Below, piece by piece: positions 310-12,452 of a stretch of DNA of 12,452 nt. Under the pieces are notes generated by a model. The model ran no database searches, was not told the DNA's origin, and worked only from the letters and a program-made list of their open reading frames with translations. Numbering within the stretch: the stretch's first letter is position 1; every line of letters begins with the position of its first letter. A program made the position numbers and the translations under genes. This DNA comes from Terriglobia bacterium (GTDB lineage: Bacteria > Acidobacteriota > Terriglobia > UBA7540), in assembly GCA_030040455.1 (NCBI GenBank), contig JASHTR010000506.1, forward strand, positions 1 through 12,452. Direction: 5' to 3'.

Positions 310-1266
310 CTACGCGAGTGATGCCTTGTCTTTGGCGAGTGTGAAGACGTGGCACTGCTTGCGTATGAGGTCGTTGAAGCTTCTGACCTCTGACGCTTCC
401 ATGGTCTGCGGGGGCAAATGCGCTTCCCCTCCGCCGTTGACGCGGAGATACACACAAATGTAGGGCGAGACCGCGACTCTGAATGAGGTCTTGGGATTAT
501 CAAGGAGCCCCTCTACAGCCGCGACAACCTGGCGTGGGTTCTCGGTCGGCGTCCAAATGGCATTGTCGAACTCCTGTACCACCAAAACAGGATTGTCGCC
601 CGTGATGAACCGTTCCTTCAGGTAAGGCAGGGAAGTGTAAAAGTCAAAAGCCGGAGGATCACTTTTCCATCGTTGCATCATCGCTTTCATCTGCTTGCCC
701 ATTTCCGTGAGGAACTCATTCGTGTTGAGTCCACGGCCTATCTGCTCCTCCATGCATTGCTTGTTGGCAAGAGTCCTCACGGTCTGGGAGGCCACAAACT
801 TACCGAGCGCCCCCAGCTCTTTCCCAGGCAGGCCTGTCAGCCCGTTTTGATCTCGCTTTACCCGCCGGGTGAGCCTTGCAAAATCATTCTCGACTTGCTC
901 GTTGAAAAAGTCTTCAAACTTGTCATCTTCAACATCGCCCGTGGTTCTAATGTAGAGGTTCCATTCTTTTCCGACGCAGCGAGGATGGCAATGAACAGCT
1001 TTTCCTTGGTTGGCGAATTTCACCCAGACCTTTCCAGAAGAATCTGCGAAGCCTTTTTGGTAGCAGACCGGCAGGAAGTGGTTATCGCGCTTCAGACCTG
1101 TCGTCATGTTGGGATGGCCCCTTCTCTTCTCGATCCGCACCGCGTAAGCCCGAGCGTACGCAAGAGCATTTGGCAGTCGCTTCGGGTCAGCGTCCATCTG
1201 TATCCATCCGGGGCGTTCGTCCATTATCCAGACCAGGCTGTGGAGCAGGGCAGGCAGGTCGGTCAT
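310..1266 (-). CDS. DUF4238 domain protein
   Basis: The protein is 318 aa from the ATG at 1266. It carries the two hallmarks of DUF4238: DNHFLPVCYQKGFAD near residues 61-75 (family pattern H-hhP-x-x-Y-L-x-x-F) and a later ERFITGDNPVLV near 218-229 (family pattern F-h-T-S/G-D-N-P-h). A conserved Lys/Arg- and Glu-rich helical middle part lies between them. The biochemical role of the family is unknown. Members are often scattered in accessory and defence-rich regions. An in-frame ATG at 1290 would add eight residues, but the start at 1266 overlaps the stop of the upstream frame as ATGA, which favours coupled translation from 1266. It is the last gene of the leftward train, and nothing leftward follows it within the window. 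It appears intact, with no internal stop. Confidence 0.75.
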   Translation of the reverse strand: MTDLPALLHSLVWIMDERPGWIQMDADPKRLPNALAYARAYAVRIEKRRGHPNMTTGLKRDNHFLPVCYQKGFADSSGKVWVKFANQGKAVHCHPRCVGKEWNLYIRTTGDVEDDKFEDFFNEQVENDFARLTRRVKRDQNGLTGLPGKELGALGKFVASQTVRTLANKQCMEEQIGRGLNTNEFLTEMGKQMKAMMQRWKSDPPAFDFYTSLPYLKERFITGDNPVLVVQEFDNAIWTPTENPRQVVAAVEGLLDNPKTSFRVAVSPYICVYLRVNGGGEAHLPPQTMEASEVRSFNDLIRKQCHVFTLAKDKASLA

Positions 1267-2098
1267 AAATGTTGCTTTAGGCGAGTCCAAAATCCTGACT
1301 GGCGCTTTTCTTCTCTAAAAACCTTGCGGCCCTCTTGGAATCCCGCCCGAAACGCGTCTAACTTCTTCTGCCCTAAACTGGCGTCTAGCCCCTCCTTGAT
1401 TGCCTCGCCAGCTATACGCCCGGCGTCGCGGATGGAATGCTCCGACCAGCCTGACGCCCCGAGGATTTGCGCGTCCACAGAGATGAGATCAGGCTGCTTG
1501 GATAAGGACTGACACCAATACAAGGTCGCCCGATCCCTCGCCTAATGGCAAACCGGTTGCCATCAATTTGAGGCGCCCCGCACAGCCACACCCCCACGGT
1601 CCCAGCCAGGGGCGCCTGGCATTCTTCAGGACAGCCGCCGGCGATCAGAAAAGTGGTCCCGAGGCTAGCGTAGTATCGATATGCTTCCTGTGAGACTTCC
1701 GGGAAGGCTTTCACGAAGAGACCATCAGCGTAACCCGCGTCGGCGGTACGAATAGCTTCAAAGAGGATGGGGAAGCTCGCCTTCAGAACAGGGTCTGAAT
1801 CGGAGAGTGACAAGACGTGCCGCTTCACGTCCTCGGACACCTTGGTGCCCAGCCTTGCTTTCACCGCAGCAAAGTGCATGGCAGCCTGGTAGCCCCGGAC
1901 CCCTAGTTGCAGCTTGCCCTTGAACTCCTCCGGGATCAGGGATTTCTCCGCCTCTGCAACCCCCACCTCGTCGTCGAAGGGCGGCCGTCGGCATATAAGT
2001 CGCCTGAGCAGGTCGTATGCCGCCAGGTTGGCGTCAAAGAGTTTCTTCGGCACTTCCTGGGGCGCAGACGGAGTAGCATGATTGAGCGGTGTATCCAC
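1263..2098 (-). pseudogene. Hypothetical protein gene, about 278 codons, apparently frameshifted near 1543
   Basis: Two overlapping frames fit one protein. The first begins at a GTG at 2098 and is convincing down to …GAPQIDGNRFA (about 1547). After that it turns into a low-complexity Ser/Arg/Pro tail, as expected from out-of-frame reading. The second frame, open from about 1541, reads ARDRATLYWCQSLSKQPDL and continues as a well-formed helical protein (…LGQKKLDAFRAGFQEGRK…) to a TGA at 1263. That TGA overlaps the start of the DUF4238 gene as ATGA. Restoring one base near 1541-1546 would join GNRFA to ARDRATLYW. I do not recognise the family. The N-terminal part is helical (LFDANLAAYDLLRRLICRRP) and no catalytic motif is evident. 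The GTG start has only a weak ribosome site. Alternatives are a sequencing error, a true null mutation, or two separate genes, the second starting at TTG 1523. Confidence 0.6.
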
Positions 2099-2173
2099 GG
2101 CGCGAGTCTCTGTGTGCCTTTCAGTCGTTAGCAGTCGCCCGCCACACTCCCGGAGCGCGCCTGCAAGCCGGAG

Positions 2174-2944
2174 CTACGGCTTGATGATCAGAGGGCGATA
2201 AGTCTTACGCATTTCCGCTTCGTCCCATATCTTGTACAGGGACGGGATGATATTCCGCATGATTTCTGACAAGCATGCGCCAGGAACATCATCGCTGGTT
2301 GTGTTCTCTCTGTTTACAGACCAGGCCAAAATGTCGGCGGCTTGAAGGCCGGGAGTCTTTTTCATTTCCGCTGTCTTCACATCACCTATGACGTCCCACT
2401 TGCAAATTGGACTGTTTCCCTTTGCCCGCGCGGGGTGGCTCTTTGCCTGTTTCCACTTCTCTTCAAACGGTGCCCTGAAGGGCTCGTTCTGGTCAAAGAT
2501 AACGTTGATGGCTTTAGGCTTGATAAGCCCACAGTATCGCACAAGGTACCAATCCAGAATCTTTTCTGTGCAGAACTCGTTGCACATGTTCACGGCATCC
2601 GGAATTTGATACGTTTCGTCCACTAACCTGCGGCGCGCCTCAAGGTCAACCGCACAGTAGAACATTTCAAATTTCTTCTTGTCCAACGTCTGCATGTACA
2701 TCAGGCATCGGAAAATCAGGCTGAATGCATTTTGGGTGGTCCAATCCGGGCCGCTGAAACCATCCCTTAAATGGGCCAACTCCCGCATGTGAACGTATGA
2801 CGCCGCCGGCGTGTGATCGGTCAATATGTTCATCCATTCGGCGTCGAAGCCCTGCCAAATATCGTCGGCGCCAGCAAAAGCAGCCAGTGTTAGATAGTGA
2901 CCACAGAGATTGCCGCTGCTGTCAAGATAAGCGCGTAGGATCAT
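2174..2944 (-). CDS. DUF3800-like protein, probable RNase H-fold enzyme
   Basis: The protein is 256 aa from the ATG at 2944. An AAGGA ribosome site lies about seven bases upstream, which decides against the longer frame from 3004. The N-terminus MILRAYLDSSGNLCGHYLTL matches the DUF3800 opening (h-h-D-E-S-G … h-h-h-h-h-A), with Asp8 in place and Ser where the family usually has Glu. Further on are VHMREL (His52), NVIFDQNEP (Asp151) and, near the end, PGLQAADILAWSVNR (Asp204), the classic LQxAD signature. DUF3800 is predicted to share the RNase H-like fold with acidic metal-binding residues, so a nuclease role is plausible but unproven. The family is common in accessory and phage-defence regions. 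The gene is co-directional with its neighbours, 53 bases after the 96-aa gene. Confidence 0.7.
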   Translation of the reverse strand: MILRAYLDSSGNLCGHYLTLAAFAGADDIWQGFDAEWMNILTDHTPAASYVHMRELAHLRDGFSGPDWTTQNAFSLIFRCLMYMQTLDKKKFEMFYCAVDLEARRRLVDETYQIPDAVNMCNEFCTEKILDWYLVRYCGLIKPKAINVIFDQNEPFRAPFEEKWKQAKSHPARAKGNSPICKWDVIGDVKTAEMKKTPGLQAADILAWSVNRENTTSDDVPGACLSEIMRNIIPSLYKIWDEAEMRKTYRPLIIKP

Positions 2945-2997
2945 GACTGTTCCTTCGACATCCGACATCGGCGGTTGTGCGACCCGCCAGCGGACTG

Positions 2998-3288
2998 TTA
3001 CCAAATGAATTCCAGCGAGTGTGACCGGCGACCTTTCACGTCAAAATTTATTGCGCCGGGCGGGTACCAAGTCTTCGGGTATATCGTTTGTTTTCCGTCT
3101 GGGGACGTGAAACTGAATTGTCCCGGCGCCTCATCGCCCACCGTGGGTAGGAGTGCAAGACCCCAAAACCGAAATCTCGCCCCTGTGAGCCGATTGGCTG
3201 AATTTGAGAAAGCTGTCACCATGACGCCCTCAATAACCCTGACCTCGTCTCCGCCCTGAACGGGCTTCCTTAGCTCGTCGGCAAACAT
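2998..3288 (-). CDS. Small hypothetical protein, 96 aa
   Basis: The ATG at 3288 lies two bases after the stop of the 99-aa gene, so the two are almost certainly co-transcribed and probably coupled. The protein has no signal peptide or membrane segment. It is rich in aromatic, Gly and beta-forming residues (GARFRFWGLALLPTVGDE, then KTWYPPGAINFDVKGRR). This suggests a small beta-sandwich or barrel. The opening FADELRKPVQGGDEVRVIEGVM resembles small KOW/SH3-like barrels in tone only. I do not recognise a family and offer no function. The frame ends about 53 bases before the preferred start of the DUF3800-like gene. Confidence 0.6.
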   Translation of the reverse strand: MFADELRKPVQGGDEVRVIEGVMVTAFSNSANRLTGARFRFWGLALLPTVGDEAPGQFSFTSPDGKQTIYPKTWYPPGAINFDVKGRRSHSLEFIW

Positions 3289-3290
3289 CT

Positions 3291-3590
3291 CTACGTCCCA
3301 GGCTCCTTGGTAGGCGGTGGTGGCGCAGCGTCTTCAGAGCCGATGCTTGCTGGTATACCGTGCTTCCTCAGAATCTCAACTACTTGCTCGTCTGGCATGT
3401 CGCTGGTTCGATAGATGAAGGCGACCGTTCCCCCGGCTGAGACGCCGACAACAGCAAGTCGCTTGCCGATAGGTGTGGCTGAAGGGACGTGTTCCGCCTT
3501 CAGTTCGTCCAACAGGCCGTCCCATTTTTCATTTGGAAGTTGGTCCGCCCTAAGAATGTCGATCCGATGTTTCCATATGACGGCGCGCAT
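3291..3590 (-). CDS. Small hypothetical protein, 99 aa
   Basis: The ATG at 3590 is preceded by a strong purine-rich ribosome site (GGGGGAG) about seven bases upstream, and it begins 24 bases after the stop of the TPR gene. The sequence reads as a compact alpha/beta protein: MRAVIWKHRIDILRADQLP, then a helix (EKWDGLLDELKAEH), two strands (RLAVVGVSAGGTVAFIYRT) and a helix (DEQVVEILRKHGI). It ends in a disordered Pro-rich tail. No membrane segment or catalytic motif is seen. The family is unknown to me. Its two-base spacing from the 96-aa gene suggests that the two products act together. Confidence 0.6.
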   Translation of the reverse strand: MRAVIWKHRIDILRADQLPNEKWDGLLDELKAEHVPSATPIGKRLAVVGVSAGGTVAFIYRTSDMPDEQVVEILRKHGIPASIGSEDAAPPPPTKEPGT

Positions 3591-3614
3591 CTATATCTCC
3601 CCCTAACGGGCTTA

Positions 3615-5081
3615 TCATCCCACCGCTGGCTGACGTGAGGCTTTCGTTTTCGACTTGAAGTCAAGCAATCGCGCCTTTGCATATTCAGTGCATCCGGGGT
3701 CTGCTTCGGTAGGGGCGAGCACGAGGTATTTTTCGTAGCAACTCGCCGCCTCCTGCATTCGCCCGAGGCTTTCCAGCGCGTAGGCCTTGTAATACCAGCC
3801 GAGCACGGGCGGCACTTCAGAGGCGAGCGCATTCTCGCAGCAAAGAATTGATTCTTCAAATTTTCCCATCATCCCTAAGCAAACCGCCTTGTCGTTCCAG
3901 TAGCTGGCTTTGCCTTGGCTCAATTCAAGGGCCTTGTCATAGCATCGGATAGCATCTTCGAACCGCCTCAACTGCTCAAGGCACAGGGCCTTAGTGCGGT
4001 AAGGGACTGATAAATCCGGGTCGAGGCTAATCGCCTTATCACAGCATGCAATCGAATCCTCATGCCGTCCCATACGACCGAAGGCCCTCCCCTTGGCACT
4101 CCACGCGTCGGAATAGACTCGCGCTCCGTACGCTGTAGATCCCATCGCTGTCAAATCCATCGCGATGATTCTGTCGTAACAAAGGATAGCTTCCTGACAC
4201 CGTCCGAGGTCTTGTAACGCGTCGCCTCTAGATTGCCATGCGGCGGTGCCTGCAGGGTTTATCCGGAGAGCCGTGTCGCACGCCTGAACTGCCTCCTCTG
4301 GTCGCGTCATGTAATTTAACAGGACGGACGCCTTTCGAACCCAGGGTCTATAGTCAGAAGGATCGGCTTCGGCGGCCTTTTCGTAGCTCTGGACTGCCTC
4401 GGCCGGCCTGCCCATCCGATTCAGGCAGTTGCCCCTGTTTATCCAGGCGGAAACACATAACGGATCAAGCCCCAGAGCTTTCTCGTGGCACTCAAAGGCT
4501 TCCAGATGACGCTCGGCGGCGTCGAGGCTGCATCCGTTGGTGGTCCATGCTTCGGCTAGCAACAACCCCATTCTGTGAAGCACCTCGTCGCCATCGAGAG
4601 GTATGGCCAGGGCGTCGGGGCAATAGCCGAGTCGCCGCTCCAGACTCTCCAGTTCCCCCTGCTCACCCCAAAATATCGTAGCCCCGACAGAGACATGCAG
4701 ATTCCACAGTTGTTCGATCAGCGCGGTGGGAGTTGAAGCCCCCACCATCAAAAACTGCGGATCGAACTCTCTCGCCGGTAACCCGTGCTGGACCCAGTGT
4801 CCAAATGGCTCAAACCTTAAACCTCGCGCCTCAAGGAAAGCACTGGCCAGGTTGGCTGCATCCTCGTACCTGTGGGTTGAGCATACTTCATACCTGCCTG
4901 CCGTCAGAATCCGTTCCATTTCTTCAAGAAGCGTACGGTGGTCATTTACGAGCAGCACCCGCGCCTTCCGGAGGGCGAATCTCGCTAGATCATTGAGTCC
5001 GCGACGGACAAGCGCGCTTTCATGCTTCACGAGAGCAACAACAGGGGCACACACGAGGGCTGTCTTTCCGTCTTCGCTCAC
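3615..5081 (-). CDS. TPR-repeat protein with receiver-like alpha/beta N-terminal domain
   Basis: The protein is 488 aa from a GTG start whose GTGA overlaps the stop of the J-domain gene. Residues about 40-165 look like a Rossmann-type domain. A strand plus acidic turn KARVLLVNDHRTLLEEMERI resembles the first strand and helix of a response-regulator receiver, followed by FDPQFLMVGAST and ATIFWGE strands. The usual phospho-acceptor Asp on strand 3 is not visible (LMVGAS instead), so any receiver would be degenerate. Other alpha/beta folds are possible. Residues about 190-460 hold roughly seven tetratricopeptide repeats (for example SAWINRGNCLNRMGRPAEAV, AWSAKGRAFGRMGRHEDSIA and YWNDKAVCLGMMGKFEESIL). 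TPRs form protein-binding superhelices and are common co-chaperone or scaffold modules. The coupling to the J-domain gene suggests that the two products work as a pair. No signal peptide is seen. Confidence 0.8.
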   Translation of the reverse strand: MSEDGKTALVCAPVVALVKHESALVRRGLNDLARFALRKARVLLVNDHRTLLEEMERILTAGRYEVCSTHRYEDAANLASAFLEARGLRFEPFGHWVQHGLPAREFDPQFLMVGASTPTALIEQLWNLHVSVGATIFWGEQGELESLERRLGYCPDALAIPLDGDEVLHRMGLLLAEAWTTNGCSLDAAERHLEAFECHEKALGLDPLCVSAWINRGNCLNRMGRPAEAVQSYEKAAEADPSDYRPWVRKASVLLNYMTRPEEAVQACDTALRINPAGTAAWQSRGDALQDLGRCQEAILCYDRIIAMDLTAMGSTAYGARVYSDAWSAKGRAFGRMGRHEDSIACCDKAISLDPDLSVPYRTKALCLEQLRRFEDAIRCYDKALELSQGKASYWNDKAVCLGMMGKFEESILCCENALASEVPPVLGWYYKAYALESLGRMQEAASCYEKYLVLAPTEADPGCTEYAKARLLDFKSKTKASRQPAVG

Positions 5082-5911
5082 CGGCTTGCCCTCATTTGGG
5101 AAGCTTCTGTCTCGTATCTCTTCCTCGCAACGTTGATGCGGCCTTTCAAGCCCGTAGCCATTTCCGCCAGCAGGTCGCGCCCCTGCTCAGTCTGTTGCTT
5201 CAGCCGGGCAATGTCAGATTCGCTCAGACCAGCAATTTCCTCCTCGATCTGCGCAAGTCTGTTTCTAACCTGCTTGATCTGGCGAACTACACGAACCAGA
5301 TCAGCGGCCGCACCCGAACCCCGCACCAATTCGGGGCTGCTTTCGTATTCCTCAAGGATTCTCCGTAGTTTGTCAACATCGCCACGGTCATAGGCGTGAT
5401 TCGCTTCCGCCATCAGGCGCTCGCGCTGCTTGCGGTCTGCCTCATCGGTTGCAAGGTCGGGATGCACCCGTTTGGCCACTTCCCTGTAAAGGCTCTTCAG
5501 TTCCGACGAGGCAGCAAATTCTCTCAATTCTGCCGCCGCTCCGTGAGCAGCAGCACCGGACTCCTCGGCTCGGGCCCGAGCCTGATTCGCGCCAGAGCGG
5601 TTCTCCTCCGTTGGCTCTCTTTCCGCCAGCGACTCGGCTACCTTAGCGTTCCACTCGTCAAGTTCCGCGTAGAGCACGCCCACGTGCCGGAGATACTGCC
5701 CCTCAAAAGCCGTGAGTTCCGCCCGCAGATTCGCCACGTAGAGCTCGCGTTCCGCGAGTTGTGATTGCAGAAGCGCGAGTTCACTTCTTTTCTTTGCGAT
5801 CTCCTCTTCTTCCGGAGACAGCGAGAGTTTCAGAGCGGACGGCTGTCGCCGAGCAACCCCCTCAAGTGGCCCGCTGGGGACTCCGTCGCGTCGTGGTGCG
5901 CTTTGGTCCAA
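5078..5911 (-). CDS. Coiled-coil J-domain (DnaJ-like) protein
   Basis: The protein is 277 aa from a TTG start with a good GGAGG site five bases upstream. An in-frame stop directly before the TTG excludes a longer start. Order of parts: a charged N-terminal tail; a long coiled coil (about 34-95, PEEEEIAKKRSELALLQSQL onward); an Ala/Gly/Glu-rich linker; a J-domain (about 136-190) with LKSLYREVAKRVHPDLATDE, its HPD tripeptide at 150-152 and the helix III region RERLMAEANHAYDRGD; then a second coiled coil to the end. The HPD motif is what J-proteins use to stimulate Hsp70 ATPase, so DnaK is the expected partner. No Hsp70, G/F region or zinc finger is present, so this is a class C J-protein with a specialised role. 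It opens the leftward operon and is overlapped by the TPR gene. Confidence 0.8.
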   Translation of the reverse strand: MDQSAPRRDGVPSGPLEGVARRQPSALKLSLSPEEEEIAKKRSELALLQSQLAERELYVANLRAELTAFEGQYLRHVGVLYAELDEWNAKVAESLAEREPTEENRSGANQARARAEESGAAAHGAAAELREFAASSELKSLYREVAKRVHPDLATDEADRKQRERLMAEANHAYDRGDVDKLRRILEEYESSPELVRGSGAAADLVRVVRQIKQVRNRLAQIEEEIAGLSESDIARLKQQTEQGRDLLAEMATGLKGRINVARKRYETEASQMRASR

Positions 5912-6105: not shown

Positions 6106-6287
6106 CCGTGCGCGTGCGCATCGAGCGTGGTTGCCTGCAAGATGGTGAATGCGCCTAACGTGGATTTGATTTTCGCTCTTGCGAGTCTGGGCGATATCGT
6201 ACGAGGCTTGCATCCGCATGAGCGTGTCCATTTTCAGACGGTGTCCTGACTGCAGTGGGAAGTTGCCGGCGGCGGTTCATGCTCATT
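6106..6287. mobile_element. Non-coding tail between the transposase remnant and the left repeat
   Basis: This stretch follows the stop of the transposase remnant. A 60-codon minus-strand frame (6231-6049) crosses it but has no recognisable motif or ribosome site, and its end runs into the repeat. I treat it as the 3' non-coding part of the decayed insertion. I could not find the terminal inverted repeats expected of an intact IS256 element, nor a target duplication. Confidence 0.35.
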
Positions 6288-6800
6288 TTACGCCACCTCC
6301 TGCCGGGTGGCGGGCTGCGATTCATCCAGAATCGCTTTGAGAGCCTATAGATCTCGATAGCCCATAATCTTTCGAAACGACTTTTCGATTTCCAAGAACG
6401 CGGTGGCCGACCAGCGCGCCGCCATGCCCGCTCGCCAGCGGCACACACGCCGCGTGCGGTCGCGAACTCCCGAATGCGGATTGTCCACAATGTTGCTGGT
6501 GGCCAAACACCGATGCAGCGAGCGCGGAATAGCCAGCCGGTTGATCGTGAAGCATTCCTCCAAGCCTTCCCGCAGCGCCGCGGCCGCATCGGGATAATCG
6601 TGCTCCAGCCAAGTGGCGATCTGGTGGAATTTGGCCGTGCCCTCTTTCTGATTCATCTTCCAGGCCGCCCGCATCAGCGAAGCCGTCTGCACCTGCTGTT
6701 CGCACGGCAGCCGCCCGAGCACATTGCGCAGTTTGTGATTCCTGCAGCGCTGTACCGGCGTTTCGGCCCCGAACACCGCGTTAATGGCGGTGCGCATTGG
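6288..6800 (-). pseudogene. IS256-family (Mutator-type) transposase, C-terminal remnant with amber codon
   Basis: From about 6797 leftward the frame reads MRTAINAVFGAETPVQRCRN, LPCEQQVQTASLMRAAWKM, TINRLAIPRSLHRCLATSNI and WSATAFLEIEKSFRKIMGYR. These blocks are typical of the C-terminal half of IS256-family transposases. After GYRDL the frame meets TAG (6347-6345), where relatives carry Trp. It then continues in phase as ALKAILDESQPATRQEVA to a proper TAA at 6288. The segment carrying the first two catalytic aspartates is missing, and upstream of MRTAIN the similarity stops (the preceding PHSSAVPEEG looks unrelated). The element is therefore both 5'-truncated and stopped, and cannot transpose by itself. 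Confidence 0.85.
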
Positions 6801-6912
6801 GCCCTCCTCAGGAACAGCAGAACTGTGCGGCACTTCAGGGAAGCTGGGTTTGCTTATCTGGGAAATAGAGATTTACGGCTACGTATATACCAACTCGCCC
6901 TGGGTCGATCTC

Positions 6913-7200: not shown

Positions 7201-7392
7201 ATGACCGGGATGCAGTTCGTAACGGATGAGAAGGGCCGCAAGCTGGCCGTCCAAATTGACCTGAAGAGATATGGGGCAGTCTTAGAAGATTTTTGGGATG
7301 GGTTGATTTCGGAATCGCGCCGCAAAGAGAAGGGGATACCGCTTGAAAAGATCAAAGCCGACCTCATAAAACACGGGCGATTACGTGGGTAG
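7201..7392 (+). CDS. RelB/Phd-like antitoxin
   Basis: The protein is 63 aa from an ATG with AAGGAG nine bases upstream. It reads MQFVTDEKGRKLAVQIDLKR followed by YGAVLEDFWDGLISESRR, IPLEKIKADLIKHG. The order of short beta strands (FVTDEKGRKLAVQIDL), a helix (YGAVLEDFWDGL) and a C-terminal PLEKIKADLIKHGRL tail matches antitoxins paired with RelE/ParE-type toxins, in which the tail inhibits the toxin. The stop overlaps the GTG start of the toxin frame by eight bases. Because the partner toxin is broken, this antitoxin is an orphan that might still bind its own promoter or related toxins. Confidence 0.75.
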   Translation: MTGMQFVTDEKGRKLAVQIDLKRYGAVLEDFWDGLISESRRKEKGIPLEKIKADLIKHGRLRG

Positions 7393-7530
7393 TTATTCCG
7401 TCGAGGTTAAGCCTTCTGCCCGGAAGGAGCTTGAAGCGTTGCCGGATAACGTGTTGGCTCGCGTCCTCTTTTAATCGAGCAGCGAATTGGGCATGGCCGC
7501 CAACCCGCATTTCCCTCTATCCAAGCGAAA
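7385..7530 (+). pseudogene. RelE-like toxin broken by an in-frame stop
   Basis: The frame starts at the GTG overlapping the antitoxin stop and reads VGSYSVEVKPSARKELEALP followed by DNVLARVLF. This is the usual N-terminus of RelE/ParE toxins (strand, then helix with KEL-x-x-LP). A TAA at 7472 ends it after 29 codons. The same frame then continues as SSSELGMAANPHFPL. Its ANPxxP matches the family's conserved …LAxNPRPPG… block, so the stop is a point lesion followed by decay. The rest of the toxin, with its catalytic basic residues, is absent. The remnant overlaps the last codons of the convergent GH79 gene. Confidence 0.7.
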
Positions 7531-8974
7531 TCAGGGCAGCGCTTGCAGCAGGGATGTGGCAAACCACTTTGCCTTCGCGGGTGGGCGCGTGCTCAAGATG
7601 TTGCGGCGCCCACGCGCCGCTCGCGCCCACCTCAGCGCCTCCGAGCGTTACGCCTTGGGTGTCCGCGAGGCTCGGTCCCGTGAGTCTCAGCACCTCCGCG
7701 CGCTGAACGGGCTGGCCCGCGTCGAGCGTGAGCCTCGCGTCGCGATCTGCATTCTTGTTGAAGACGGCGACCTTCAACGTGCCGTCTTCCGAGCGCGCCC
7801 CGTAGGCAGTGAGGAGCGGCCCATGAGCTTCAAGTGTGCTCTCGATCATCTGCCTCGCCCCTGCCCGGTTAAAAAGAAGCAGCCCGTAATATTCCGGGCG
7901 CGCCTTGAAACCGTTCTTCGCCGTACCTGCAATCGGCGTGTACCAACCGTATCCTCCGCCGTGGAAGTTGATTCCACCAAAGCCCGCTGCCGCAAGCTGG
8001 AACATCATGTCCCCGGCCCATAGCGCGGCCCCAAAAGTGTTGCTGACACCGGACTTGCCTCCGCCGTAGCACGAATTGGTTTCAGCCAGGCGGAAGGGCA
8101 GGCGAGATTCACGCATCGCTTTCTGGATTCCCGCAATGCCCGCCAGGAGTTTCGGGTTGGGCTCGAGAAGTCTTTGGAGGGTCATTTGCGGATTCGTCGG
8201 CGGACCTTCAGCGTAGTAATGGCTGGTGAGCAGAACGATCTCGTCTCTGAAACGCTGAGCGAACTTTTGCACCCATTCAACGTTGTGCGCCGTGTCGGGT
8301 CCGGCGAACCGCGCGCCCGGAACGCGACGGTGAATCGCCCGGTAAAAGCGCTCCCAGTCGCCCGCGTACTTCTCAAAATCATAGTCCGGAGACCGCAGGC
8401 CGTTGTGGGAGAACAAGTCTACTTCGTTGCCAAGCTGCAAAGCGATCAGCTTTTCGCCCAGCGTCGCCGCCACAAACTCAGCTTCATCGGCTGCTTCTTC
8501 CGGTGCGCCTTTCCCGAGGTTGAGCCCGTAAAGCGCGCGCCAGCCGGTAGCATCCAGAAATCCGCGCAGGCTGCGGATCGCCGCTGTGGTGGTTAGGGTT
8601 CGACGCGGGGTCTTGTGTCCCGTATCCGGACCCACAGCGGCGGGAATGGATGCCTCAGTTTGCGGATTCGGATGCGCGTTCCAAAACGCATACTCGCTCG
8701 TGTTGCCTCCAATGCGCAACACGCCCTGCGTGCTGAGCCGGCGGAGAAATCCAACGAGGGGGGTATTCTGGGGCGAAAAGAATTCGGGATGCGCAAGCTG
8801 TGCGGACTCATAACTGAGCCCCATGTAGTCTGCCGGAATCCGCGGTCCCGGCCTTCCCGGATGCAAGGTAAGCCGCGCAGAAAGCGGCTGCTGGCTGCGG
8901 GAGTATAAAATACCTGGAATGGCTGTTCCTAACGCGGCGAGCGCGGTGGAAGATAGAAAGCGGCGTCGGTTCAT
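7517..8974 (-). CDS. GH79 family glycoside hydrolase (beta-glucuronidase-like), Tat-exported
   Basis: The protein is 485 aa from the ATG at 8974. The frame stays open to 9085, but the signal peptide fixes the start. The N-terminus MNRRRFLSSTALAALGTAIP is a twin-arginine signal, implying export of the folded enzyme. The body is a TIM barrel with LRIGGNTSE (about 86-94), LQLGNEVDLF, where Glu184 is the expected acid/base, and RLAETNSCYGGG, where Glu298 is the expected nucleophile. A C-terminal beta domain (about 385-485) follows. The spacing of 114 residues between the two Glu equals that of the Acidobacterium capsulatum GH79 beta-glucuronidase (Glu173/Glu287, from memory). Retaining exo-cleavage of beta-glucuronides from plant or microbial polymers is likely. 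The exact substrate cannot be read from sequence. No clear ribosome site precedes the ATG. Confidence 0.85.
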   Translation of the reverse strand: MNRRRFLSSTALAALGTAIPGILYSRSQQPLSARLTLHPGRPGPRIPADYMGLSYESAQLAHPEFFSPQNTPLVGFLRRLSTQGVLRIGGNTSEYAFWNAHPNPQTEASIPAAVGPDTGHKTPRRTLTTTAAIRSLRGFLDATGWRALYGLNLGKGAPEEAADEAEFVAATLGEKLIALQLGNEVDLFSHNGLRSPDYDFEKYAGDWERFYRAIHRRVPGARFAGPDTAHNVEWVQKFAQRFRDEIVLLTSHYYAEGPPTNPQMTLQRLLEPNPKLLAGIAGIQKAMRESRLPFRLAETNSCYGGGKSGVSNTFGAALWAGDMMFQLAAAGFGGINFHGGGYGWYTPIAGTAKNGFKARPEYYGLLLFNRAGARQMIESTLEAHGPLLTAYGARSEDGTLKVAVFNKNADRDARLTLDAGQPVQRAEVLRLTGPSLADTQGVTLGGAEVGASGAWAPQHLEHAPTREGKVVCHIPAASAALISLG

Positions 8975-9079
8975 AATGGCAGCAGTAAACCACACTTGGA
9001 GCCAATAGGGCAAGGGCCGGGATTTTGAATGGTATGTGACGTGAAAGCGACGGTTGAGAAGCTGTGAATTATTCGAATT

Positions 9080-9161
9080 TGTCATGCTGAGCGCAGCGAA
9101 GCATCCCGGTATTTGCTTGAAAACAAAATACTGTGATCCTTCGCTGACGCTCAGGATGACA
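9080..9161. repeat. Intergenic REP-like palindrome
   Basis: The arms TGTCATGCTGAGCGCAGCGA and (downstream) TCGCTGACGCTCAGGATGACA's complement pair over about 27 bases with a few mismatches. The loop holds CCCGGTATTT…AAATACTG, itself partly self-complementary. This GTCATxCTGAGCG…CGCTCAGGATGAC element is a dispersed intergenic palindrome I know from Acidobacteria and other soil bacteria. It lies between the start of the GH79 gene and the atp genes, and could fold in RNA as a long stem. Confidence 0.75.
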
Positions 9162-9245
9162 GGCTCCGCACAATTAATTCACACCTTCTGAGGCTTTCCC
9201 TGGCTTGTCACGCCCTCTTCGGAAACCATTGCCCGGAGTTCCAGA

Positions 9246-9251
9246 TATAAT
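9246..9251 (+). promoter_or_regulatory. Candidate -10 box of the atp operon
   Basis: A perfect TATAAT lies 17 bases before the first possible start codon (ATG 9268) and 32 before the second (ATG 9283). No well-spaced -35 is visible; the nearest TTGCCC is only 11 bases upstream. The TATAAT position gives a very short leader for 9268 and a more normal one for 9283. Confidence 0.4.
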
Positions 9252-9267
9252 GGCATTGGCTCCCTGA

Positions 9268-9549
9268 ATGGAAAGAAAGAAGATGTCACCGCGCTTGGGA
9301 AAGACATCTGATCTTTGGGCTCAGGCGGCGCTTTACGCCAGCCTGAGTCTTATTATTCCGGGCTGCGCGGTGGCAGGATATTACGTGGGGGACTGGCTGG
9401 ATGGAGTTCTTCACCACGGGGTGGTCTTTGCGGTGGTGGGAGCAATCGTGGGCGCGGCGGCGGGAATCACCGAGGTGCTTCAGGTGGTCATGAGATGGGA
9501 GAAGCGTGGAGAGCGAAGAAACACTTCAGGCCGCAACCAGCCGGATTGA
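9268..9549 (+). CDS. atpZ: AtpZ/AtpI-type F0F1 accessory membrane protein
   Basis: The protein is 93 aa (or 88 aa from ATG 9283). It has a short basic N-terminus and two membrane helices, ALYASLSLIIPGCAVAGYYV and HGVVFAVVGAIVGAAAGITE, joined by a GDWLDG turn, then a basic tail. This is the layout of the AtpZ/AtpI family (two-helix proteins with a G-x-x-x-G/GxxLD hairpin). They are encoded at the head of ATP synthase operons and are thought to aid c-ring assembly or Mg2+ uptake. The gene overlaps the next one by 44 bases in another frame, pointing to coupled translation. The symbol rests on position and topology. Confidence 0.75.
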   Translation: MERKKMSPRLGKTSDLWAQAALYASLSLIIPGCAVAGYYVGDWLDGVLHHGVVFAVVGAIVGAAAGITEVLQVVMRWEKRGERRNTSGRNQPD

Positions 9550-9937
9550 AGCTCGCCTGCTGACGTGGATGCTGATTGTCAGCGCGGTGGTGATTCTTGC
9601 CAGCTTGGGGGTGAGCCATCTGCGATTCGCGGCCGGCTTCGCGTGCGGAGCCGCTCTTTCTATCCTCGGCGCGGTGTGGCTGGAAGAGGCGGTGGCGGCT
9701 GCCTTAAGGGGTGTGGCGGATCGCTCGGCAAAGCTTGCCACAAAAGAACTGGTTTTTAAGGTCATAGTACGTTATCCTTTGTTGTTAGGCGCACTCTATC
9801 TCTTCTACCGTACACATTGGTTGCCGGCCTGGGCGGTGCTTGCGGGCTTGTTTGTTCCACTGGCAGGCGGCGTTGTTGAGTGCTTGTATCAATTAGGTGG
9901 AATCCTCTTTCCTTCCAAGCCACAGCGCGGGCTGTGA
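9506..9937 (+). CDS. atpI: ATP synthase subunit I-like membrane protein
   Basis: The protein is 143 aa from a GTG with GGAG about five bases upstream, starting inside the end of the preceding gene. Four hydrophobic helices are seen: about 18-35 (LLTWMLIVSAVVILASLG), 40-60 (RFAAGFACGAALSILGAVWL), 85-105 (VIVRYPLLLGALYLFY) and 108-130 (PAWAVLAGLFVPLAGGVVEC). This is the topology of ATP_synt_I (PF03899) proteins, which assist assembly of the c ring and usually precede atpB. Its position between the atpZ-like gene and atpB supports the call more than any single motif does, since the family is poorly conserved. Confidence 0.7.
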   Translation: MESEETLQAATSRIEARLLTWMLIVSAVVILASLGVSHLRFAAGFACGAALSILGAVWLEEAVAAALRGVADRSAKLATKELVFKVIVRYPLLLGALYLFYRTHWLPAWAVLAGLFVPLAGGVVECLYQLGGILFPSKPQRGL

Positions 9938-10292
9938 CGAGGAAGTGAGAATTCCCGGTCTTCGGGGCCAGTTTCGGCTCATGTGCGCTGAGCGCACCAC
10001 CTGAAATAAAGCTGAGCAACATCCGGACAGTTTTGAAACGAGCGGAATCCGGAGAGCGCGGAGGTGACGGTTTGTACTGTGCCTGCGGCATAGAAGCTTG
10101 TAAATCCTGGGGTGTGGGGAAAAATTGGCTTCAAGCCAAAGCTTCATGCCAAGCCGAAAAATAAGTTGAAAGTCAAAAGTCAAAGGTTAAAGAACTTAAT
10201 CTTTATAACCTTTCGACTCTCGACTTTGAACTTTCAACTTGCCTTGGCGTCTTGGCGTGAGGTTTTATATCTTTTCACGGCTTCTGAGAGTT
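9938..10292. repeat. 355-base spacer between atpI and atpB with inverted and tandem repeats
   Basis: No gene is seen. Arms AAGTTGAAAGT (10163-10173) and ACTTTCAACTT (10230-10240) pair perfectly. Between them are partly matching CAAAAGTC…GGTTAAAG and CTTTATAACC…GACTTTG segments, giving a long AT-rich stem-loop. It is followed by a perfect tandem of the 8-mer CTTGGCGT (10243-10258). A smaller hairpin, TTGGCTT-C-AAGCCAA, sits at about 10126-10140. Such AAAGT/CAAAAGTC and CTTGGCGT repeats occur as dispersed intergenic elements in Acidobacteria and cyanobacteria (from memory). The spacer may contain a separate promoter for atpB, but none is clear. Confidence 0.6.
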
Positions 10293-11027
10293 ATGGAACA
10301 TTCATTCTGGTTCGCAACATTGCTCAATAAGCTGCTGGGAACTGCCGTTGCCGCGCTTCTGGTGAAGCTTCACCTCCCGCCCGCGGACGCCGCCCACCCT
10401 ATCCCCAATTATTTGGCCGGGGAGATTCTGGTTATCATCATTATCATCGTGGGCGCGCTGATCCTGCGCCCTCGCCTCTCGGTGAGCGCGCCGGGGAAGT
10501 TCCAACTGATGATGGAGTGGGTTGTAGAGTTTTGCCGCAGCATGGTGGACGACGTGATCGGGCCTTCCGGCCGGCAATACGTCGGCCTCATCGGAACGCT
10601 GGGAATTTTAATTGTTCTCTGCAATTTGATGGGGCTGATCCCTGGGATGGAAAGCCCCACCGCGCACGGCGGCCTCACCTTGGGGTGTGCGATCGTGGTG
10701 TTCATTCATTACAATCACCAGGGAATCCGCCACCACGGTTTCGCAGGTTACGTGAAACACCTGAGCGGACCGCTGCTGGCCATTGCCTGGCTGATGTTGC
10801 CTCTGGAGATTTTCAGCGGCCTCTTTCGGATGCTTTCATTGAGCGTTCGTCTGTGGGCCAACATGATGGTGGGCGGGTTGCTCGAGGGAATTTTTACTCC
10901 GCTGATCCCGCTTCTGATCCCCGCGCTTCTCATGGCCCTCCACATTTTTGAATCTCTATTGCAGGCCTATATATTCATGGTCTTGCCGGTAGTCTATATC
11001 AGCCTGGCGGTCACCGAAGAGCATTGA
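10293..11027 (+). CDS. atpB: F0F1 ATP synthase subunit a
   Basis: The protein is 244 aa from the ATG at 10293. An upstream ATG at 10239 would add a basic stretch inside the repeat and is not preferred. Multiple membrane helices are seen. The key segment LSLSVRLWANMMVG carries Arg186, the equivalent of E. coli Arg210, which is essential for ion transfer to the c ring. The last helix HIFESLLQAYIFMVLPVVYI holds His217 and Gln224, matching E. coli His245 and Gln252, and the protein ends VTEEH like E. coli. At the position of E. coli Glu219 there is Gly195; Glu198 or Glu220 could serve instead. Subunit a forms the two ion half-channels of F0. The gene is followed 52 bases later by atpE. Confidence 0.95.
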   Translation: MEHSFWFATLLNKLLGTAVAALLVKLHLPPADAAHPIPNYLAGEILVIIIIIVGALILRPRLSVSAPGKFQLMMEWVVEFCRSMVDDVIGPSGRQYVGLIGTLGILIVLCNLMGLIPGMESPTAHGGLTLGCAIVVFIHYNHQGIRHHGFAGYVKHLSGPLLAIAWLMLPLEIFSGLFRMLSLSVRLWANMMVGGLLEGIFTPLIPLLIPALLMALHIFESLLQAYIFMVLPVVYISLAVTEEH

Positions 11028-11079
11028 AATGCCCGAAATGCATGAGGCAGATCCGGGAAAGAAATCAAGCTAAAGGAGA

Positions 11080-11415
11080 ATGGAAAACGTGCGGAACAAG
11101 ATCATTTACCTCTTGACAGGACTTGCGGGGATTCTTGCGGCCGCTCCCGCGTTCGCGCAGACCGCAGGAAGCGCGGCGGCCAGCGGAGGCGCCAGCGGTG
11201 CCGGACTGGCGGCAATTGGCGCGGGCATTGGCATGGGCATCGCCTCAGGACTGTGCGGCATCGGGCAAGGTAGAGCCGCAGGAAGCGCTTGTGAGGGCGT
11301 GGCCCGCAACCCCGGAGCGCGGCCCTCCATCTTTCTCTTCCTGATCCTGGGCTTAATCTTTACTGAGTCCCTCGCGCTCTACACGCTGGCGATCATCTTC
11401 ATCAAAATCCATTAG
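11080..11415 (+). CDS. atpE: F0F1 ATP synthase subunit c
   Basis: The protein is 111 aa from an ATG with AAAGGAG nearby. It is longer than the usual 70-90 aa because of an N-terminal signal-like segment (IIYLLTGLAGILAAAPAFA-Q) and a Gly/Ala linker. Helix 1 is LAAIGAGIGMGIASGLCGIG, leading into QGRAAGSACEGVARNPGARP, the polar loop that docks F1. Helix 2 is FLFLILGLIFTESLALYTLA, with Glu96 as the ion-carrying carboxylate. Gln63, Glu96, Ser97 and Tyr101 align with the Na+-site residues Gln32, Glu65, Ser66 and Tyr70 of Ilyobacter, while Thr67 is replaced by Leu98. The gene closes the plus-strand block; no atpF, atpH, atpA, atpG, atpD or atpC follows. Confidence 0.93.
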   Translation: MENVRNKIIYLLTGLAGILAAAPAFAQTAGSAAASGGASGAGLAAIGAGIGMGIASGLCGIGQGRAAGSACEGVARNPGARPSIFLFLILGLIFTESLALYTLAIIFIKIH

Positions 11416-11536: not shown

Positions 11537-12379
11537 TCAACCCAGCCGGTATACCCGCCTCGCGTTTTCGTAGAAGAGTTTGCCCCGGTTTTCTTCACTC
11601 TCGGCCCGGGTAAGGAATAGAAGTGTCTCCACCCATCTCTTCAAGGTGGAAGCAAGCGTACAGACGGGCCAGTCGCTGCCAAACATCACGCGGTTCCAGC
11701 CGAAGCAATCAATGGCGTGCTCGATGGTGGGTCGCAGGTCGTCGGCGCTCCAGCTTGTGAGGTCCGCTTGGGTGACCAGGCCTGAGATTTTGCAGTTGGC
11801 GTTCGGATAGCTTGCGATTTCGCGGAGGTGCGCTCGCCACGGTTCCACAAGCCGCTCTTTGATCGGAGGATTACCACAATGGTCGAGAACGAAGGTGACC
11901 TCGGGGCATTGCTTCACCAGGTTGATGGCAATGGGGAGTTGGCGCGCCAGGACGCAGATGTCAAACGAGAGGCTCCGCGAGCCGAGGCTTTTCACATTTT
12001 CAATAAAGGTTCTGCCTTGGCCGAGCGCGTCCGGCTGTGTATGCAGGACGCGGCGGATACCCTTCAAGGCCGGATAGCCGGAGATTTTATCGAGATATTC
12101 ACCGAAGCCCTCCTTCTCCGGTCGGCCACATGCGACCACGCCGGTGAGCGGGTTGTCCGGACTTTCAGCGAGATTCAGGATGTACCGGGTTTCCGCGAGC
12201 ATGAAGGGCTCATCCACGTCGGCTTCGAGATGAACGGATTTCTCGATGCCGACGCCGTCGATGGCTTCGAGATAATCTGCCATTCGGAAGCTATGGTTCA
12301 GCCGCGGCTCGGTCTTGCACCAACTGAATGAAAAAAGTTCCATGTCCCAAAGGTGCTGGTGAGCGTCAATTATTTTCAT
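11537..12379 (-). CDS. Amidohydrolase_2 family hydrolase (COG3618, fuconolactonase-like)
   Basis: The protein is 280 aa from the ATG at 12379, preceded by GGAGG about ten bases upstream. The frame is open further, to 12433, but the longer start adds a non-family segment. The N-terminus MKIIDAHQHLWD gives the HxH metal pair (His7, His9) on the first strand of a TIM barrel. LKGIRRVLH (about 105-113), FVLDHCGNPP (His167), CKISGL (about 196-201) and VMFGSDWPVC (Asp236) follow, in the order known for COG3618 enzymes. These hydrolyse lactones such as L-fuconolactone or related carboxylic substrates. The exact substrate is open, and no sugar-catabolic partner gene is visible in the window. No signal peptide is seen, so it is probably cytoplasmic. 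Confidence 0.85.
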   Translation of the reverse strand: MKIIDAHQHLWDMELFSFSWCKTEPRLNHSFRMADYLEAIDGVGIEKSVHLEADVDEPFMLAETRYILNLAESPDNPLTGVVACGRPEKEGFGEYLDKISGYPALKGIRRVLHTQPDALGQGRTFIENVKSLGSRSLSFDICVLARQLPIAINLVKQCPEVTFVLDHCGNPPIKERLVEPWRAHLREIASYPNANCKISGLVTQADLTSWSADDLRPTIEHAIDCFGWNRVMFGSDWPVCTLASTLKRWVETLLFLTRAESEENRGKLFYENARRVYRLG

Positions 12380-12452
12380 CGTGCATATTCCTCCGTTTCG
12401 AGCCAACGGGCCGTTCTTTTGGCAGGGACGCATCCCCGCGCTATTCCCCCGG

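Follow-up and report, generated by a model that had tools for sequence, protein, structure and literature searches.

The 12,452-nucleotide window studied here (G000:C148:1-12452), a contig of a Terriglobia bacterium of the phylum Acidobacteriota whose draft genome comprises 3.36 Mb in 630 contigs (about 77% complete by estimate), encodes a J-domain protein (hereafter J) whose stop codon overlaps the start of a gene for a TPR-containing partner protein. The arrangement of J with an adjacent partner exceeds chance, recurring in many genomes, while the set of seven genes that these two head in the window does not recur. On balance, and with moderate confidence, we read the pair as a two-part co-chaperone, consisting of a constant J socket and an adjacent partner whose first ~35 residues would serve as a docking plug, the rest being an exchangeable recognition module.

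The partners carry unrelated payloads and have in common an N-terminal tag, a ~26-residue motif around [LI][VI]xRG[LR]x[DE]. A tagged partner adjoins or is fused to J in 59 of the 108 J loci read, or in 50 without the nine accepted by eye or by a relaxed motif (L043, L045, L068, L075, L150, L151, L154, L155, and L156); the loci were chosen by J similarity, so this proportion is not a natural frequency. They comprise a first set of 66 loci (L001, L003-L008, and L042-L101, with L050 excluded because it duplicates L006; 46 tagged), a second set of 22 (L146-L168, with L147 dropped as a duplicate of L007; 13 tagged) and a third set of 20 from family f22 (L171-L190; none tagged), the short loci L009-L041 and L102-L145 standing outside the tag counts. 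In 45 aligned partners, L050 among them, the motif lies mostly at residues 24-30, with extremes of 15 and 34 (zero-based), and its arginine is conserved in 45, glycine and [LI] in 44 each, and the eighth-position [DE] in 42. The partner genes start between -31 and +80 nt relative to the J stop, with a 4-nt overlap in 17 cases and a 1-nt overlap in 12, the starts having been picked by a script partly from the tag position. At L154, L155, and L156 the J profile match falls into two pieces, and the partners have degenerate tags.

Association of the tag with J extends to whole genomes. A 38-position hidden Markov model (HMM) of the tag was run on 40 genomes, 19 with J and 21 without (G443, with no J match listed, was classed among the latter), and produced 18 hits at E ≤ 1e-4, spread over 16 genomes, every one directly beside J; a match in G429:C71 at 1.0e-3 was also beside J. 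Another 27 genomes, all with J, yielded eight matches at E ≤ 0.01 in seven genomes (seven at E ≤ 1e-4), all beside J save L003 gene 3, which is next after the first partner. Over the 67 genomes together, 25 of 25 matches at E ≤ 1e-4 stood beside J, many of the scanned tag sequences or their close kin having trained the HMM. The 20 genomes whose J has no partner gave no HMM match. The tag as a proteome-wide signal is not supported by these scans, in which no match at E ≤ 1e-4 lay away from J.

Profiles with other payloads held out point in the same direction. Run against 10,020 open reading frames (ORFs), a profile of the 23 WD40 partners placed non-WD40 partners at ranks 24-27 (L003 gene 3, E 3e-4; L054, 4.7e-4; L003 gene 2, 6.5e-4; the window TPR protein, 9.2e-3), with unrelated ORFs mixed in from rank 28, and a profile of 13 Sel1 partners retrieved the WG partner of L152 (2.6e-4). 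The strict motif occurs at residues 15-44 in 49 of 2804 ORFs of at least 100 aa from 88 loci; 45 are adjacent or fused to J, and the other four are elsewhere in L083, L161, L166, and L168. Among 44 partners, the motif arginine is encoded by six codons and the glycine by four. The six arginine codons indicate that selection acts on the peptide, and this codon diversity rules out an RNA or translation signal. The evidence for an amphipathic helix is suggestive, 23 of the 44 tags beating their own shuffles at 0.1.

Behind the tag, the position overlapping J is not conserved as TPR: relatives hold Sel1, WD40, LRR, WG, PEGA, receiver, or GAF-GGDEF proteins or a J fusion (Table 1). The preliminary description of this DNA had the operon led by a J-domain/TPR pair; J with an overlapping partner does recur in many genomes, but the TPR protein is the variable part rather than the core. 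J and the adjacent partner are a real recurring pair, and the suggestion of a chaperone-coupled scaffold or sensor was a fair guess. BLASTP comparison of 46 partners by payload gave clusters of 23 (WD40), 14 (Sel1, L050 included), and two (LRR), and seven singletons. Two tagged genes stand in tandem in L003 and L097, and three J genes occur in genome G451, their partners being of the GAF-GGDEF, WD40, and Sel1 types.

The J-payload fusions are the strongest hint that the split pairs act as one complex. L008 encodes two in tandem, of 937 and 816 aa: the former joins J to the motif SSLIIRGRKDAV and to domains 2 and 3 of a sliding clamp, with its tag internal, and the latter (7222-9672, + strand) contains J and WG repeats. 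In L097 a single ORF (8971-10611, - strand) has a protein kinase domain ahead of J and is followed by tagged LRR and WD40-like genes. At L054 (3756-4718, + strand), the tag is joined to the OB, zinc, and HhH domains forming the C-terminal part of DNA ligase, and the contig ends 1.1 kb after J; this may be a chimera, a rearrangement, or another captured module, and it was counted as a tagged locus and not as a payload type. Several payloads look inactive: the L044 receiver has glycine aligned with the aspartate of CheY, L045 has GWGEF where diguanylate cyclase has GGEEF, and domain 1 of the L008 clamp is unmatched. To judge from these features, the receiver, GGDEF, and clamp payloads, and likewise the receiver-like domain of the window partner, seem to serve for binding and not for catalysis.

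The tag and a receiver-like domain precede the TPRs in the window partner, which goes beyond the preliminary description. Its residues 7-82, covering the tag and part of the receiver-like stretch, share 37% identity (E 1.3e-6) with the partner of L044, a clear receiver. Gly114, at the position of the receiver aspartate, ends the third confident strand of the model and is invariant in the window partner and four relatives (5/5). The first 185 residues have four other relatives in the protein database, and a PDB sequence search for a receiver fold gave no match.

J itself is all-helical in its AlphaFold2 (AF2) model (mean pLDDT 84.6), a coiled coil with the HPD motif between helices 136-149 and 157-176 and an N-terminal hairpin turning near residue 100. 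Helices flank the motif on both sides in 19 aligned relatives, and HPD is retained in the best J of all 67 scanned loci (counting L050, the duplicate of L006). J has a J domain with an HPD loop and no G/F region, beta-sandwich, or zinc finger of classes A and B, as in class C J proteins; Pfam detects DnaJ and a sub-threshold DUF2730 and nothing else. The PDB holds no whole-fold match at E ≤ 0.001, and chains with a J-domain-like fold matched at E 0.007 or weaker only.

A search of a 5.8-billion protein database, with the 7996 best candidates scored, found 1726 proteins at E ≤ 1e-3, the query counted; the other 119 listed are 62-72% identical to J. J turned up in five genome searches whose thresholds differ and whose samples overlap: at phylum level in 34 of 247 genomes (E ≤ 1e-10), at class level in 95 of 349 (E ≤ 1e-15), within a single order in 76 of 298, in family f3 in 9 of 150, and in family f22 in 76 of 119 (E ≤ 1e-20). 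Among the genomes of the window's own family, f1, listed in the class search, only that of the window matches J, the other 20 having none. This distribution fits horizontal arrival in the window's genome, or possibly a misbinned contig. Hsp70 genes were present in six of six genomes checked, the incomplete genome of the window having a fragment only. None of 40 stretches matching two patterns was confirmed as a viral copy of J.

The 23 WD40 loci group as a single clade (support 97) in a 67-row tree of J, while Sel1 needs at least five changes and the payload labels excluding "none" need ten. The window J is nearest that of L003 (65% identical), whose payload differs. Untagged J lineages are nested among tagged ones (the root being unknown), so that losses of the tag are likely. 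Comparison of 57 tagged with 23 untagged J proteins revealed seven columns at least 85% conserved in the former and at most 45% in the latter (K41, A82, E83, A89, R112, F132, and G200), with R112 in 57/57 versus 8/23 and F132 in 50/57 versus 3/23. The model places A82-A89 on one arm of the N-terminal hairpin and R112 on the other.

These features suggest how the pair might work. The tag would fold as a helix onto the J coiled coil, perhaps docking at the hairpin around residues 82-89 and 112, plus F132, the positions that decay in untagged lineages. The payload, in the window the receiver-like domain and TPRs, would bind a chosen target. Triggering of Hsp70 ATP hydrolysis by the HPD loop is established for J domains generally, and here it would deliver DnaK to the target of the payload. 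In the window the pair lies next to a transposase remnant, and unrelated, probable passenger genes come after it.

Parallels exist among known systems. Cargo-loading peptides of microcompartments and encapsulins likewise are short terminal helices that recruit diverse cargo; here, the socket is a J protein, and no shell protein was seen. As far as the available text of the review goes, J proteins direct Hsp70 to clients, and those of class C combine an HPD J domain in an otherwise unrelated protein with interaction modules that aim Hsp70 (PMC8215388). We read the pair as a putative split, modular form of such a co-chaperone. It would differ in that the aiming module is a separate protein, exchanged between relatives and presumably joined by a shared N-terminal tag; the available part of the class C account in PMC8215388 contains no such split design. 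The CbpA-CbpM operon of gamma-proteobacteria, as treated there, also encodes a J protein with a partner directly downstream (PMC8215388), but that partner, CbpM, is one small protein that inhibits by binding the J domain, whereas here the partners are diverse and only the tag is common. The window partner consists of tag, receiver-like domain, and TPRs, and CbpM is absent from its 25 listed Pfam and 16 NCBIfam matches. The chaperone-based ternary conflict systems described in Kaur 2020, VMAP among them, share the logic of constant chaperone parts and variable modules, some inactive (PMC7159879), but are built on MoxR with vWA or GTPases, in contrast to J and no visible effector here. Pfam detected neither a MoxR ATPase nor vWA in the proteins of the window operon. 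The pairing of bNACHT25 with host DnaJ resembles ours in coupling a J protein to a sensor with a possible immune role (PMC12169576); it differs in its general DnaJ, NACHT sensor, and absence of a tag.

Several observations weigh against a two-part co-chaperone. J lacks a recognized tag in 49 of the 108 loci, including 20 of 20 from f22, several of whose contigs end soon after J, which implies that J can work alone. The HMM missed the tag both at L068 and in the L008 fusion, and weaker matches occur away from J (G256, 0.002; G187:C37, 0.0025; G397, 0.009; G443, 0.009 and below); the best J-less one, that of G256, lies in an ORF of a stretch resembling the non-coding strand of another gene. The LRR, receiver, and GGDEF partners were not clearly retrieved by any held-out profile among the 10,020 ORFs, and the combined WD40 and Sel1 profile reached the window TPR protein only at E 1.4. 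Joint loss of the tag and the seven J residues is confounded by phylogeny. The J-domain identity given in the preliminary description has the HPD motif in its favor, while the Pfam DnaJ score (E 5.7e-4; 20.4 bits) is under the 27.8-bit cut-off. The L008 J-WG fusion has HQG in place of HPD and, to judge from this change, may no longer trigger Hsp70. Binding of the tag to J is inferred from co-encoding, the shared tag, and the fusions.

An appreciably smaller probability belongs to J as a dedicated folding helper, with the partner as its client, the tag as the site of handover to DnaK and the payload functioning apart from targeting. The same adjacency and tag evidence applies, and hydrophobic residues flanked by arginine resemble Hsp70-binding peptides; permanent J-payload fusions in L008 would, however, make little sense for a transient client, and Sel1, LRR, WD40, and TPR are recognition folds. 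We find it rather unlikely that the payloads are immune baits, cellular modules captured as inactive copies to decoy phage proteins, with J and Hsp70 setting the threshold of the response. The glycine replacing the phosphorylated aspartate in L044, GWGEF in L045, the presence of clamp domains 2 and 3 only, and UzuA and ArdC genes near J in L003 and L149 fit this idea, as does the parallel with the chaperone-based conflict systems, whose modules, according to the available text, are acquired "typically in inactive form" (PMC7159879), and the requirement of host DnaJ for phage sensing by bNACHT25, as stated in the part of the source available (PMC12169576). Against it, the WD40 and most Sel1 pairs fall in clades suggestive of vertical inheritance, the pair has no recurrent effector gene as a neighbor, and what the partners match in PADLOC is limited to short repeat or receiver segments (PtuA with L090, SduA with L044). 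Equally doubtful is its broader form, a polymorphic surveillance system of Acidobacteriota in which the socket carries repeat scaffolds or inactive receiver, GGDEF, or clamp baits and Hsp70 converts bait binding into a response. There is still less to be said for the tag as a localization or other N-terminal signal with J merely a conserved neighbor: its fixed distance from the N terminus and its helix-like, low-confidence prediction when free would suit such a signal, but no other proteins of the same genomes carry it at E ≤ 1e-4, and it is internal in the L008 fusion.

Least probable of all, indeed very improbable, is the seven-gene chaperone-nuclease system proposed in the preliminary description, even though the seven leftward genes at 5911-310 do lie on one strand with the overlaps and gaps it reported. 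The J/partner overlap is GTGA (5081-5078, - strand); gaps of 24 and 2 nt and later of 75 nt follow, and ATGA overlaps at 1266-1263. The gap at the DUF3800 gene is 53 nt with an ATG start at 2944, while a TTG start at 3004 would give an overlap instead. One member is frameshifted as described, the gene at 2098-1263 being split into ORFs of 228 and 86 aa, neither of which, read separately, matches a family below E 0.05. Pfam scores above the cut-offs bear out the TPR (2.4e-49), DUF4238 (2.8e-17), and DUF3800 (1.7e-6) identities. The five trailing genes, however, do not recur with J, and the broken gene is one of them. In tblastn searches of 190 loci, outside the window locus they found one DUF3800 gene, in L003 (33%, E 8e-38, ~6 kb from J), which speaks for the proposal, and, at loci selected on grounds other than J, two weak hits to the 99-aa protein. 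The expected co-occurrence of the J, TPR, 99-aa, and 96-aa genes in other genomes did not appear as a set: 148 other genomes gave five weak matches to the 99-aa protein (E 0.006-0.010) and one stop-broken match to the 96-aa protein (E 0.001). In the 5.8-billion database, nine further proteins are similar to the 99-aa one. As to the suggested anti-phage role, none of eight window ORFs matched a PADLOC-DB 2.0 model below E 0.01.

Elsewhere, L003 carries a UzuA-like defence gene (13485-14516, + strand; E 7e-77) ~1.2 kb behind its second tagged gene, and at L149 the region of J includes an ArdC gene. Together with the L003 DUF3800 gene, these show that J pairs near the clade of the window can sit in accessory regions. 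At the f78 loci a gene that is presumably rsmI often lies near J. In some f22 genomes (L031, L033, L034, and L098), a long ORF starting MKFLVSQ, which we take to be potassium-channel-like, stands after J in place of a tagged partner.

Table 1. Features of the window, with the loci in which other payload types were found.
Feature	Position or loci	Strand	Basis and remarks
J-domain protein, 277 aa, TTG start at 5911	5078..5911	-	long coiled-coil helices around J domain; constant "socket"
HPD motif, J residues 150-152	5456..5464	-	sequence; invariant in 19/19 aligned relatives
Partner, 488 aa: tag, receiver-like domain, TPR solenoid	3615..5081	-	start inside J stop (GTGA)
Tag region, residues ~12-35	4977..5048	-	alignment/profiles; low-confidence model helix 14-33
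Core tag motif LVRRGLND, residues 24-31	4989..5012	-	motif alignment
Receiver-like domain, residues ~38-165	4587..4970	-	weak Pfam match, E 0.083; likeness to L044; model
TPR solenoid, residues ~164-482	3636..4592	-	Pfam; model
99-aa protein, rare; probable passenger	3291..3590	-	function unknown
96-aa protein; probable passenger	2998..3288	-	function unknown
DUF3800 protein; probable passenger	2174..3004	-	Pfam
Split gene (2098-1412 + 1523-1263); probable passenger	1263..2098	-	two frames
DUF4238 protein; probable passenger	310..1266	-	Pfam
Mutator-family transposase remnant	6345..6833	-	Pfam; profile positions 238-352 of 379; upstream of J
Sel1 payload	L005, L046, L068, L090, L148, L150, L151		Pfam
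WD40 payload	L048; L097 gene 3		Pfam; L097 gene 3 just under cut-off
LRR payload	L081, L097 gene 2		Pfam
Receiver payload	L044		Pfam
GAF-GGDEF payload	L045		Pfam
PEGA payload	L003 gene 3		Pfam
WG repeats payload	L152		Pfam
Payload without family	L003 gene 2		Pfam

The Mutator transposase fragment upstream of J indicates that the region may have been mobile in the past. GC content, 0.53-0.61 over the contig, does not shift sharply at the gene cluster and so does not speak for a recent insertion. Between J and the transposase, an 89-bp stretch (~6148-6236) has a second copy with 79% identity at G000:C169:7531-7619. The ORF at the start of the contig (3-203, + strand), presumably an antitoxin of a toxin-antitoxin pair, has no Pfam or PHROG match. 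From the list of ORFs, we take those at 9268-11415 (+ strand) to encode ATP synthase a and c subunits and their neighbors. The amidohydrolase-like product of 11537-12433 (- strand) has L-fucono-1,5-lactonase as its best NCBIfam match (145.6 bits, under the 400-bit cut-off).

No description of this arrangement of J and tag was found in the open-access literature at title and abstract level, most subscription journals being outside that coverage. How J proteins choose their targets is a central question of Hsp70 biology. The pair described here seems to keep the trigger of Hsp70 apart from the part that aims it, linking the two through a standard connector, so that the specificities of tag, socket, and payload would be open to study one at a time. 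A protein might thus come under Hsp70 control by the addition of ~35 residues.

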